From assembly GCF_031082295.1 (NCBI RefSeq), contig NZ_JAVHLD010000004.1, positions 117,216-181,215 of the forward strand: a stretch of 64,000 bases of DNA, given 5' to 3'. Each line of letters opens with the position of its first letter. Position 1 is the first letter of the stretch. This DNA is from Humidesulfovibrio sp. GTDB taxonomy: Bacteria; Desulfobacterota; Desulfovibrionia; Desulfovibrionales; Desulfovibrionaceae. The notes beneath the pieces were generated by a model. It made no database searches. It was not told the origin of the DNA and saw only the letters and a program-made list of their open reading frames with translations. Made by a program: the position numbers and the translations under genes. Positions 1,634 through 5,403 of this stretch are shown here, one piece after another.

Positions 1634-2341
1634 ATGCACGACGCCGAGTCCCTGTGTGTGCTTCGCGTGGTCCCAGGGCTCGACGGGCCGGCCTGGGCTT
1701 CCCTGAGCGCGAGCCACGGCCTTGAGCACTGGTGCGCCGTGCCCCTCGGCCAGTCCGCCCCTCAGGCCGACATTCTGGCCCAGGCCATCGGTCAGATTGC
1801 TGCTGCCCCATCGGAGCCTCTCCTTCATGACGTCCTGCGCACGGAAATCGAGCGTTCCCGCGCCTGTAACGTGCCCCTGGCCCTGGCCCTCATCCAGCCT
1901 GATGGCCCGCGCAGCGCAGTGAAACGGTTGGGCGCTTTGCTGGACCTGGTCCTTGGCCTGAAGCGCTGCTTCGACCACGCCTCAATGCTGGGTGGCGATC
2001 AATTGGCGATCGTCTTTTCCGGAGCGTCCCTGACCGAAGCTGAACGCTTTGTTGGCGCCATTCTCCGTCGAATTCGCGCAAACGGCGTGGACAAGTCCGC
2101 ACCGGCGGCCGAGGGCCTGCTCTGCTCGGCTGGCTTGGCCGGGTACGGCGGTTGCGTGGAGCTCACACCGGACGAACTCATCAACAGCGCGGGTTTGGCC
2201 TTGCAGGATGCCCGCAACCTGGGCGGCAACCGCCTGGAAGTGGCGGCCCCTGTTGACGTCTGCCTGGCCTCGCGTGACACGCTGGTGCACGCCAACGAAA
2301 AACATTTCCTCTTTACCGGCAAGAAAGCGGGGGACAAATGA
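1634..2341 (+). CDS. degenerate GGDEF-domain protein
   Basis: A protein of about 235 residues whose C-terminal half has the layout of a GGDEF domain, but the signature is 'GGDQLAIVF' (residues 120-128) instead of GGDEF/GGEEF. The family's catalytic acidic residue is therefore missing, so cyclic di-GMP synthesis is unlikely; a sensory or regulatory role is more plausible. The later part 'AGLALQDARNLGGNRLEV' matches the end of GGDEF domains. I chose ATG 1634 because AGGAGG lies 5 bases upstream; an in-frame ATG at 1547 would overlap the end of prfB and add 29 residues. The stop overlaps the next ATG (ATGA at 2338-2341), so translation is coupled to the FlhG/MinD-type ATPase. Confidence 0.72.
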   Translation: MHDAESLCVLRVVPGLDGPAWASLSASHGLEHWCAVPLGQSAPQADILAQAIGQIAAAPSEPLLHDVLRTEIERSRACNVPLALALIQPDGPRSAVKRLGALLDLVLGLKRCFDHASMLGGDQLAIVFSGASLTEAERFVGAILRRIRANGVDKSAPAAEGLLCSAGLAGYGGCVELTPDELINSAGLALQDARNLGGNRLEVAAPVDVCLASRDTLVHANEKHFLFTGKKAGDK

Positions 2342-3228
2342 CCGACACCAACCCTGAGATCACCGCAGGGGCGACTCCGGACGAGCAAAGCGCCACTGCC
2401 GCGGTGAACCCCGGCAGCACGGTGAGCCTGTGCATAATGAGCGGCAAAGGCGGCGTGGGAAAAACCAACCTCTCGCTGAACCTGGGCCTGGTGCTGCGTG
2501 ACATGGGCCACAAGCTCTTGCTCATGGACTGCGACCTTGGCCTGGCCAATCTTGACGTTCTGCTCGGCCTGACGCCGGAGAAGAACATGCAGGATTTACT
2601 TTCCGGCGATGTGCGGCCTGAAGATGTGCTGCTGCATGTGGAGGAGGGCCTTGACATTCTGCCGGCAGCCAGCGGCGTCCCGGAGCTGGTGGAAATGGAT
2701 CAGAACCAGCGCGACGAACTGTTCGAGACGCTCACGGACATGATCAAGGGCTACGAATTCCTGCTGCTCGACCTGGGTGCGGGCATCAGCGGCACGGTGC
2801 TGGCCCTGGCACGCATGGCACAGATGCGTGTGGTGCTGGTGACGCCGGAGCCGACCTCGCTCACCGACGGCTATGCCATCATCAAGGTTCTCAACGCCAA
2901 GTACGGAGTGCGCGACTTCTGCGTGGTGGTGAACCAGGCAACCGCAAAGGAAGCCAGCGAAACTTTTCAACGTTTGAACATGGCATGCAAAACTTTTCTT
3001 GGTTTCGACCTCGTCAACCTGGGCCATGTTCGCCTTGACCGCACTCTCACACAGGCCGTCATCGACCAGACGCCGCTGGCGAGGTTCGCCCCGGAATGCC
3101 CAGCCATCAAGGACATTCGAGTCATCGCGCAACGCGTCTCCAGCTATCGCAAGCAGAACATGGAAACCATCTCCGGCCGAAAAGCCCTCAAGGAATTTCT
3201 TCCCACTGCAACCTCACGAAACCCTTGA
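2338..3228 (+). CDS. MinD/ParA-family ATPase, FlhG (FleN)-like
   Basis: A 296-residue P-loop ATPase. The deviant Walker A 'SGKGGVGKTNLSLNLG' (residues 35-50) is followed by 'LLMDCDLGLANLDVLLGL', the pattern of FlhG/FleN proteins that count flagella, more than of MinD proper. A membrane-targeting C-terminal helix is not obvious. FlhG normally works with FlhF and flagellar regulators at the pole, but no flagellar genes are nearby, so the role could also be general polar positioning. The start overlaps the preceding degenerate GGDEF gene. The stop TGA overlaps the TTGACG hexamer of a possible promoter for the next gene. Confidence 0.82.
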   Translation: MTDTNPEITAGATPDEQSATAAVNPGSTVSLCIMSGKGGVGKTNLSLNLGLVLRDMGHKLLLMDCDLGLANLDVLLGLTPEKNMQDLLSGDVRPEDVLLHVEEGLDILPAASGVPELVEMDQNQRDELFETLTDMIKGYEFLLLDLGAGISGTVLALARMAQMRVVLVTPEPTSLTDGYAIIKVLNAKYGVRDFCVVVNQATAKEASETFQRLNMACKTFLGFDLVNLGHVRLDRTLTQAVIDQTPLARFAPECPAIKDIRVIAQRVSSYRKQNMETISGRKALKEFLPTATSRNP

Positions 3229-3265: not shown

Positions 3266-3329
3266 TGATGAAGTCCATGCCCTCGGCGGGGTGCCCACCC
3301 CACCAAACAGGCCAACAAACGGAGCGGAC

Positions 3330-3605
3330 ATGAACAAGAGCGAGCTCATAAAGGCGCTGGCCGAAGAGAAGAAACTGCACATCGACGATGCCACCAAGAT
3401 TGTTGGAGCATTCTTCGACTCCATCAAGGACGCGCTTGTCGCAGGCGACAGGGTTGAAGTGCGTGGTTTCGGCAGCTTCAAGGTCAAAGACTACAATGGG
3501 TACACCGGCCGCAATCCCAAGACTGGAACAGTTGTTCAGGTCCAGCCCAAACGCCTGCCCTTCTTCCGTCCAGGCAAAGAGCTCAAGGAATTCATCAACG
3601 ACTAG
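3330..3605 (+). CDS. HU/IHF-family DNA-binding protein
   Basis: A 91-residue histone-like protein that bends and compacts DNA as a dimer. Family hallmarks are the N-terminal 'MNKSELIKALAE', the 'GFGSFKVKDYNGYTGRNP' beta-arm entry and 'RNPKTG' followed by a C-terminal 'FFRPGKELKE'. ATG 3330 gives the standard family length; longer in-frame starts upstream would run through the stop region of the preceding gene. It could be HU or an IHF-like subunit; the sequence alone does not settle this. The selenoprotein candidate starts one base after its stop, so the two are probably on one transcript. Confidence 0.93.
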   Translation: MNKSELIKALAEEKKLHIDDATKIVGAFFDSIKDALVAGDRVEVRGFGSFKVKDYNGYTGRNPKTGTVVQVQPKRLPFFRPGKELKEFIND

Positions 3606-3606
3606 T

Positions 3607-4491
3607 ATGTTGCGCATCCTCACGCTTCTGCTTTTTGCAGTACTGGCCTTTGCGACGGATGTACACGCTGGTGCGGCAAAGCTCACCTTGCTCTTCAGCG
3701 GTAACACGGAAGCAGAAGCTCGTCCCTGCCCGTCCTGAGGCGGGAAGACCGTAGGCGGACTGGCCCGGCGGGCCACGTTGCAGAATGCGCTTCGACAGAG
3801 CGCGCCCAAAGAGGCACCGGTGCTTGTTCTCGCCGGTGCCTATGAATTCGCCCAGTTCCAGGCGCAAAAGCCCCCAACGCGCAAGCGGCTTGAGTTCATG
3901 GTCAAGGCCTTCGATCTCCTGCGCAATGACCTGGTCTATGTCACGCCCTATGAACGCGGGATACTCACCCAGGCAGGTGTTCAGCCAAGCAAACTCTGGC
4001 GTGGCTCCAATCGCCTTGAACAGCACATGCTTGGCAAGGACTCGGCGCACAGAGTCGGCGTGCTTCTTCTCCCACCCCTTCCCGATGGCGCGAAAACCCT
4101 CCCACTGGCACTTGTCCAGCAGATTGAGGGCGCGGTACGCACGCTCAGGGCCAAGGCACGCCTCATCGTGGCCATGAGCCCTTGGGGCTACTCGCTGGAG
4201 CAGGAACTGCTCAAGTCGGATGGCCCCTTGCCCGACGTGCTGCTCGGTTCCGGTGTCGGCATAGGCCTTGTTGGCAACATCTCGCCAAAGGGAAAAACTC
4301 TCTGGATACGCGCCTTCACCCAGGGCAAGTCCATGAGTCGCATCGACATTCTTGCCTGGCCCGACCACGCCGACGCCAATTTCAAATGGACGGAAGAGCA
4401 AAATGTTCGTATGACCCTACTCGGGTTGACTGATCATTACATGGAAGATTCGCATATGCTCTCGCTCATGCAGAACATGGGCACGGACTAG
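3607..4491 (+). CDS. candidate exported selenoprotein (CxxU) of the UshA-like type
   Basis: One frame runs from ATG 3607 to TAG 4491 with a single in-frame TGA at codon 44 (3736-3738), giving 294 residues. Residues 1-22 are a signal peptide (MLRILTLLLFAVLAF, ending near HAG). The text around the TGA reads 'NTEAEARPCPS-U-GGKTV' and goes on with 'GGLARRATLQ'. Residue 44 therefore completes a CxxU motif with Cys41, and the sequence on both sides of the UGA is continuous and protein-like. Related UshA-like/5'-nucleotidase-type proteins, as I recall them, have cysteine here before a 'GGLARR' stretch. No ATG or GTG allows a credible restart just after the UGA, and the 250 downstream codons are intact. 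A hairpin starts 22 bases after the UGA (3761-3775). A simple nonsense mutation is the alternative. Function is unknown; a periplasmic redox or phosphoesterase-like role is only inferred. It sits between HU and dapA. Confidence 0.8.
3761..3775 (+). promoter_or_regulatory. candidate bacterial SECIS hairpin
   Basis: TGGCCC-GGC-GGGCCA is a perfect 6-bp stem with a 3-base loop that starts with G. The loop G lies about 28 bases after the UGA at 3736-3738. Known bacterial SECIS elements sit immediately downstream of the UGA with a small G-containing apical loop roughly 16-37 bases away, which this satisfies. A second stem, CCCGTC/GGCGGG, brackets the UGA itself (3729-3744). Confidence 0.6.
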
Positions 4492-4524
4492 CCTGACCGC
4501 AGAGAGTCGGTCAGAGGAGGAAGG

Positions 4525-5403
4525 ATGCAGTTGCGCGGCGCGTTTACCGCACTGGTGACGCCGTTCAAGAACGGCGCCGTGGACGAGGAGGCCTACAGGG
4601 CTTTCATCGAATGGCAGATCGAACAGGGAATCAACGGCGTTGTGCCCTGCGGCACCACCGGCGAGGCCGCTACCCTCTCTCATGCGGAACAGGGGCAGGT
4701 CATCCGTATCTGTGTCGATCAGGTAAAGGGGCGCGTCCCGGTCATAGCCGGAGCTGGCTCCAACAACACCCTGGAAGCCATCGAGTTGACCAGCATGGCC
4801 AAAAAGGCCGGGGCTGACGCAGCACTCATCATCACCCCCTACTACAACAAACCCACGCCTGACGGCTTGGTGGCGCACTTCAAGGCCATCGCCGCCGAGG
4901 CCTCCATGCCGTTCATACTGTACAACGTGCCTGGCCGCACTGGACAGAACGTCCTGCCCAAGACCATAGCGCGCATCGTCAAAGAAGTGCCAGAGGTCAT
5001 CGGCTGCAAAGAAGCCACGGGTGACATCAAGCAGGGGTCGGAGCTGTGCGAGATCATGGGCAAGGAGTTCGTGGTCCTGTCCGGTGACGACTTCACCGTG
5101 CTGCCCTTGCTCTCCGTAGGCGGATGCGGAACCATCTCGGTCACCTCCAACGTCATGCCCGCCAAGATGTCCGGCATGATTGACGCCTACTTCAAGCGCG
5201 ACATCGTTCGCGCCCAGGCGCTGCATATGGAGATGAACCCGGTGAACAGGGCCATGTTCCTTGAGACGAACCCCATCCCGGTCAAGACGGCACTGTCGCT
5301 CATGGGCAAGATGGGCGTCGAGTTCCGGTTGCCTCTTGTTCCCATTGAGCCAGCCAACCTGGCCAAGCTCACCGAAGTCCTCAAGACCAGCGGGCTTCTG
5401 TAA
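4525..5403 (+). CDS. dapA: 4-hydroxy-tetrahydrodipicolinate synthase
   Basis: DapA condenses pyruvate with aspartate semialdehyde, the first committed step to diaminopimelate and lysine, in the cytoplasm. The 292 residues match the family length. The Schiff-base lysine is K162 in 'GCKEATGD', the catalytic tyrosine is Y133 in 'ILYNVPGRTG', and 'CGTTGEAATL' forms the substrate site. A strong GAGGAGG-type ribosome site precedes ATG 4525. A clear terminator follows at 5429-5460. dapB, the next enzyme of the pathway, is also in this window (25238-26014) but in a different transcription unit. Confidence 0.97.
   Translation: MQLRGAFTALVTPFKNGAVDEEAYRAFIEWQIEQGINGVVPCGTTGEAATLSHAEQGQVIRICVDQVKGRVPVIAGAGSNNTLEAIELTSMAKKAGADAALIITPYYNKPTPDGLVAHFKAIAAEASMPFILYNVPGRTGQNVLPKTIARIVKEVPEVIGCKEATGDIKQGSELCEIMGKEFVVLSGDDFTVLPLLSVGGCGTISVTSNVMPAKMSGMIDAYFKRDIVRAQALHMEMNPVNRAMFLETNPIPVKTALSLMGKMGVEFRLPLVPIEPANLAKLTEVLKTSGLL

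Follow-up and report, generated by a model that had tools for sequence, protein, structure and literature searches.

Within the 64,000-nucleotide stretch of Humidesulfovibrio sp. DNA analyzed here (assembly GCF_031082295.1, contig NZ_JAVHLD010000004.1, positions 117,216 to 181,215; hereafter the window, numbered from its first letter), an open frame that starts at position 3607 runs through an in-frame UGA at codon 44. By profile comparison, this gene is a member of NCBIfam family NF049981, 'UshA-like (seleno)protein family 2'. With good confidence, we read the UGA as very likely encoding selenocysteine (Sec), and the product as a predicted exported protein whose Cys-Pro-Ser-Sec (CPSU) motif would form a thiol/selenol redox centre on a predicted SoxB/5'-nucleotidase fold devoid of the metal-binding residues. 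A protein of this kind is already known, given the NF049981 match and the listing of the family as a 'GenBank annotated' CxxU family in the excerpted Table 1 of a 2026 review (PMC13188914). Beyond that catalogue, the present analysis adds family-wide evidence of a Sec insertion sequence (SECIS), shows that the metal-binding residues have been lost, and describes the neighbourhood of a paralog, which includes CcmF and a tetratricopeptide repeat (TPR) protein. The features of the gene, all on the plus strand, are:

3607..4491, plus strand: coding region of the UshA-like (seleno)protein family 2 member, 294 amino acids through the UGA (NF049981, 297.2 bits against a cut-off of 140)
3607..3669, plus strand: predicted signal peptide (hydrophobic stretch; cleavage after VHA placed by eye)
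3727..3729, plus strand: codon for Cys41 of the CPSU motif (Cys in 102 of 102 copies)
3736..3738, plus strand: UGA codon 44, predicted selenocysteine (102 copies: UGA 83, Cys 19, other 0)
3758..3778, plus strand: SECIS-like hairpin (core stem 3761-3766 / 3770-3775; loop GGC 3767-3769; 28 nt from the UGA to the loop)

The original prediction, made from the letters of the window alone, described a frame from ATG 3607 that meets TGA at codon 44 and continues for 250 more codons, with a C-P-S-U motif (Cys41 and Sec44) followed by GGKTVGGLARRATL; upon re-reading, both descriptions proved correct. The frame opens with ATG at 3607-3609, contains no in-frame TGA other than codon 44 and closes with TAG at 4489-4491.

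Comparison with relatives strongly supports the reading of the UGA as Sec. We read 102 copies of the gene, from 98 loci and the window; the 83 UGA copies among them comprise 81 distinct sequences. The motif is CxxU in 83 copies and CxxC in the other 19, the first Cys being invariant, and no further in-frame TGA occurs within the matched stretches. Thus, the check originally proposed, namely a search for Cys at the UGA position among homologues, comes out in favour of Sec. A TGA in the same place was also seen in eight relatives, all metagenome-assembled genomes (two Desulfovibrio, one Humidesulfovibrio and one placed in Desulfovibrionales, with four labelled only delta- or Proteobacteria), and the Cys-form homologues also include the database proteins P0056-P0058. 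On a quick tree built without the letter in question, the Sec/Cys state changes five times, at least two of these changes falling on starred branches. In three of the genomes read, all of one genus, a CPTC copy is followed in tandem by a CPSU copy (L060-L062), so that each locus holds a natural Cys/Sec pair. Taken together with the hairpin and the Sec genes described below, the UGA/Cys exchange supports the claim that the protein is made with Sec, and we regard this decoding of the UGA as very likely.

In a passage of PMC13188914, the bacterial SECIS (bSECIS) model is defined by a loop of 3-9 nt with G in the first two positions, a stem of 4-16 bp, a location 16-37 nt after the UGA and a minimum free energy of at most -7.5. 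The hairpin in the window fits this description, with the GGC loop, a 6-bp core, a distance of 28 nt and -10.4 kcal/mol. So do 75 of the 81 distinct UGA copies, compared to 0 of 13 Cys copies with the same spacing, in a comparison made at one fixed register that leaves aside the 6 of 19 Cys copies that are spaced differently. In all 83 UGA copies, the same distance separates the UGA from the GG of GGLARR. Among the 81 distinct UGA sequences, the loop is GGC in 67 and GGA in 11, and each of the six core pairs forms in 95-100%; in the 13 Cys copies, individual core pairs form in 23-92%, and four consecutive pairs counted from the loop form in none. Pair 26-38 occurs as G-C, G-U, U-A and C-G. Because the protein is nearly the same here in both groups, the difference between the UGA and Cys copies is largely one of codon choice: for the second Arg, 79 of the 83 UGA copies use (C/A)GG and 2 of the 13 Cys copies use CGG, and CGG accounts for 15 of the 134 Arg codons in eight genes of the window. 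Four UGA copies (L055, L085, L089 and L090) lack the usual hairpin at the fixed register and may use another form of SECIS.

The genome also encodes the machinery that such decoding would require. The original prediction placed SelA, SelB and tRNA-Sec outside the window, and indeed the Sec genes found above cut-off lie on contigs C11, C22 and C3, the window being part of C44. The search for this machinery yielded selA, selB and selD, all above cut-off, and a tRNA-Sec with a UCA anticodon (80.9 bits). The selD gene (L018, contig C3) is itself a selenoprotein gene, with an in-frame UGA in the motif G-U-A-A-K. Across genomes, SelB accompanies the UGA: among the 126 of 132 family-2 genomes with copies listed, SelB scored above cut-off in 106 of 113 genomes with a UGA copy vs 4 of 13 with UGA-free copies only (Fisher p 4e-7, a value that ignores relatedness, 8 of the 13 UGA-free genomes being of one genus and several assemblies being incomplete). 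Twelve of these 13 genomes were fetched and read, and all carry Cys; G060 is the one that was not read.

At the level of profiles, the window protein scores far above the NF049981 cut-off. The match covers positions 1-262 of 262, the CxxU motif is present, and we found nothing that separates the window protein from that family. The match to the older family NF041198 is weak (41 bits against a cut-off of 275); with this score, the CPSU motif and a length of 294 amino acids, the window protein falls outside that family. The two share a related N-terminal part, and NF041198 has PCGU at the corresponding place, past the first strand; however, its members are about 520 amino acids long, have a C-terminal multihaem cytochrome part in 10 of the 12 loci read and in several cases retain, as judged by eye, some of the metal motifs in part (ND, DAG[DN]). 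NF041198 (COG0737, with a CxU motif) was reported from marine metagenomes, according to an extract of PMC2398784. Neither the window protein nor P0056 or P0058 matched any Pfam model. A PDB sequence search came up empty with the single protein as query and, with an alignment as query, returned five weak rows, all unrelated. In a family-level sample, family 2 is present in 132 of 199 genomes; in a phylum sample, 85 of 198 genomes show some match, and only two, both of the genus of the window, exceed the cut-off, in a set that includes just seven listed genomes of the window's family.

The predicted structure of residues 21-294 matches the catalytic-domain fold of UshA and other metallophosphoesterases, so that the protein is predicted to adopt the fold of the SoxB thiosulfohydrolase and the UshA/CD73 5'-nucleotidases. 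It differs from these enzymes in having the CPSU motif and in lacking both the metal ligands and the C-terminal domain, and identity in the listed structure alignments is 10-19%. The motifs DxH, GD, GNH, SH and GHSH, which we take to be the ligands of the dinuclear metal centre, are intact in L080, the true nucleotidase of the same genome. By comparison, the copy in the window retains none of the eight metal-site positions, 86 of 102 copies likewise retain none, and the ligands are eroded in every copy. The hhalign comparison to L080, a single-sequence template, is colinear, with a probability of 7% and E of 0.005; the last two ligand positions were set by an ungapped extension of this alignment by eye. 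The designation 'UshA-like' in the original prediction therefore holds for the family name and the predicted fold but does not extend to enzyme function, the metal ligands having been lost. Thus, on a predicted phosphatase-type fold, the metal site is gone, yet one Cys is invariant and the Sec gives way to nothing but Cys; this retention indicates that the Cys/Sec pair matters.

The N-terminus, MLRILTLLLFAVLAFATDVHA, resembles a signal peptide by eye and is followed by the first predicted strand and then RPCPSU; 88 of 102 family copies passed a crude test of hydrophobicity over a fixed stretch. The protein is accordingly predicted to be exported. Export, the invariant Cys, the exchangeable Sec/Cys and the lack of a metal site together make thiol/selenol redox activity the most likely function, and we propose that the protein is likely a periplasmic thiol/selenol oxidoreductase. 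Under this model, UGA codon 44 would be decoded through the SECIS-like hairpin by the Sec machinery of the genome and the protein would be delivered to the periplasm, where Cys41 and Sec44 would cycle between a selenenylsulfide and the thiol/selenol form. This cycle might reduce or isomerise periplasmic disulfides, or act on sulfur compounds, with c-type cytochromes or their maturation as the probable point of contact. An excerpt of PMC13188914 states the expectation that most uncharacterised families with such motifs are redox proteins; the literature that we searched yielded no proposal of a function for UshA-like selenoproteins.

Several observations weigh against this interpretation. The hairpin is equally long in 13% of random synonymous codings of the window gene taken alone, the plain fold of the 51 nt after the UGA is not more stable than shuffled sequences (z -0.03), and an Rfam search of positions 3300-4600 gave no match at E up to 1; the hairpin signal emerges only from comparison across copies, and even there 6 of the 81 UGA copies deviate from the bSECIS model at the fixed register. 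The SelB association is not a test on independent genomes, given the dominance of one genus among those without UGA; SelB is found in four of these 13, and seven genomes with UGA copies have no SelB above cut-off, all of them assemblies of about 180 or more contigs. With respect to function, the CxxU motif is suggestive of redox work but falls short of proof, and where families with conserved redox motifs built on Cys are discussed, an extract of PMC2398784 singles out the older UshA-like family as an exception. Confidence in the structural model is among its lowest at the CPSU loop (residues 41-47; predicted local distance difference test score, pLDDT, below 50), so that the model is no guide to the geometry around Sec.

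The simplest alternative, that the UGA is a genuine stop, yielding a 43-residue peptide and a separate N-truncated cytosolic protein, or else a sequencing error, gains some appeal from the many short versions in databases and from alternative downstream starts such as TTG 3778. These short versions, however, are what the original prediction anticipated from gene callers. Among 59 database proteins, 56 are 166-246 amino acids long, the aligned short ones starting past the site, and the remaining three (288-296 amino acids) are all Cys forms. The closest, P0002, carries no name and has 223 amino acids and 99% identity across 76% of the query, and one short match, P0059, is already labelled 'UshA-like (seleno)protein' in one source. 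Given the same UGA in 83 copies with only Cys otherwise, the hairpin tied to the UGA and the Sec machinery in the genome, we reject the stop and the error on comparative evidence and consider them extremely improbable; as to the error specifically, the check on it turned up the identical TGA, with the shared hairpin, in many other genomes. It is also improbable, albeit to a lesser degree, that the protein has remained an UshA/SoxB-type enzyme that hydrolyses phospho- or thiosulfo-esters with the help of metal, and that Cys41/Sec44 only tune or replace a metal ligand. The fold match speaks for such an enzyme, as does residue 80, a possible ligand, which is Glu or Asp in 101 of 102 copies; the absence of all eight metal-site positions in most copies speaks against it, as do the lack of any Pfam match and the length of 294 amino acids, too short to accommodate the C-terminal nucleotidase domain.

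A third possibility, unlikely in our estimate, is that family-2 proteins are dithiol (selenol) partners of a haem lyase of the CcmF/NrfE type, replacing CcmH/NrfF in the arrangement CcmF-TPR-UshA2 and keeping the apocytochrome CXXCH thiols reduced. It draws on a paralog in the same genome (locus L059, contig C37, 3620-7119, minus strand), 30% identical to the window protein and with an in-frame UGA and the same hairpin. The paralog stands last in a run of three genes, in which 1 nt lies between CcmF and TPR and 16 nt between TPR and UshA2. CcmF exceeds the Pfam cut-offs and is assigned by NCBIfam to the CcmF/NrfE family, albeit below its cut-offs. This gene order recurs in G122 and G161, of the same genus, and in G106, of another genus; in G175, the TPR end of the order is visible on a contig that is cut. 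Moreover, the genome encodes two CcmF and gave no match to CcmH (PF03918), a control having matched in E. coli; combined with the position of the paralog, this suggests a possible role in cytochrome c maturation. There is a precedent in the NrfEFG system, where, as described in an excerpt of PMC12285233, the thiol subunit NrfF acts jointly with NrfE, which is CcmF-like, and NrfG, a TPR protein. Like CcmH/NrfF, the window protein has an exported dithiol-type motif, but it has no Pfam match to CcmH, and the linkage to CcmF and TPR genes applies to the paralog only, the window copy adjoining HU and DapA instead. Furthermore, a CcmF query was placed in only 3 of 68 loci searched (L059, L098 and L106), plus L135, and the score of the TPR protein against the CcmH/CycH TPR model stays below cut-off. 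An extract of PMC3601427 reports that in E. coli, Desulfovibrio Ccm genes (System I*) yielded holocytochrome c although neither CcmH nor CcmG was present. CcmF is also present in 61 of 67 genomes that lack family 2, and a general need of family 2 for cytochrome maturation is hence unsupported.

Our preferred interpretation, a thiol/selenol oxidoreductase, has a cytochrome context, provided by the multihaem end of the sister family NF041198 and by the paralog next to the CcmF and TPR genes. In the NF041198 loci (L123-L134), a partly degenerate UshA-like domain with PCGU is joined to a C-terminal multihaem cytochrome; several CXXCH motifs lie towards the C-terminus in 10 of 12 (L130 gave no reading and L123 was read incompletely), and profile positions 398-519 match a separate cytochrome (PF13435) of the genome studied here. 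If the CcmF link is true, it would identify a partner for thiol redox steps of cytochrome c maturation where the genome lacks a recognisable CcmH. A bolder extension, which we put forward as doubtful, is that a module of the NrfEFG/CcmFHI type, acting as haem lyase, has had its CcmH/NrfF thiol subunit replaced by a Sec protein on a metal-stripped SoxB/UshA fold, the window gene being the housekeeping member of a new class of periplasmic thiol reductases that fills the CcmH gap. Downstream of the paralog, we noted by eye a P-type-ATPase-like frame; the end codon of the paralog itself is also UGA.

The genes that surround the selenoprotein gene in the window are:

2338..3228, plus strand: ParA/MinD-type ATPase gene (PF10609/PF13614), upstream
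3330..3605, plus strand: HU-type DNA-binding protein gene (PF00216, 109.7 bits), directly upstream, gap 1 nt
4525..5403, plus strand: dihydrodipicolinate synthase (DapA) gene (PF00701, 317 bits), downstream

The HU stop codon lies 1 nt before the ATG, and dapA starts 33 nt past the end of the selenoprotein gene. Among the 68 family-2 loci examined, DapA is downstream in 36 and a ParA/MinD-type ATPase is upstream in 54.

An antisense open frame of 268 amino acids (window 3595-4401, minus strand) overlaps the selenoprotein gene and is probably a shadow of GC-rich coding DNA. Because a frame of this size exists on the opposite strand, the length of a frame by itself carries little weight in this DNA, and we rejected it as an argument; it is conservation, namely the NF049981 score and the 102 copies with only UGA or Cys, that places the frame of the selenoprotein gene beyond chance. 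Elsewhere in the family, UGA-free second copies with CPTC or CAVC (L063-L066) lie beside genes that, by eye, resemble those of type IV pilins.
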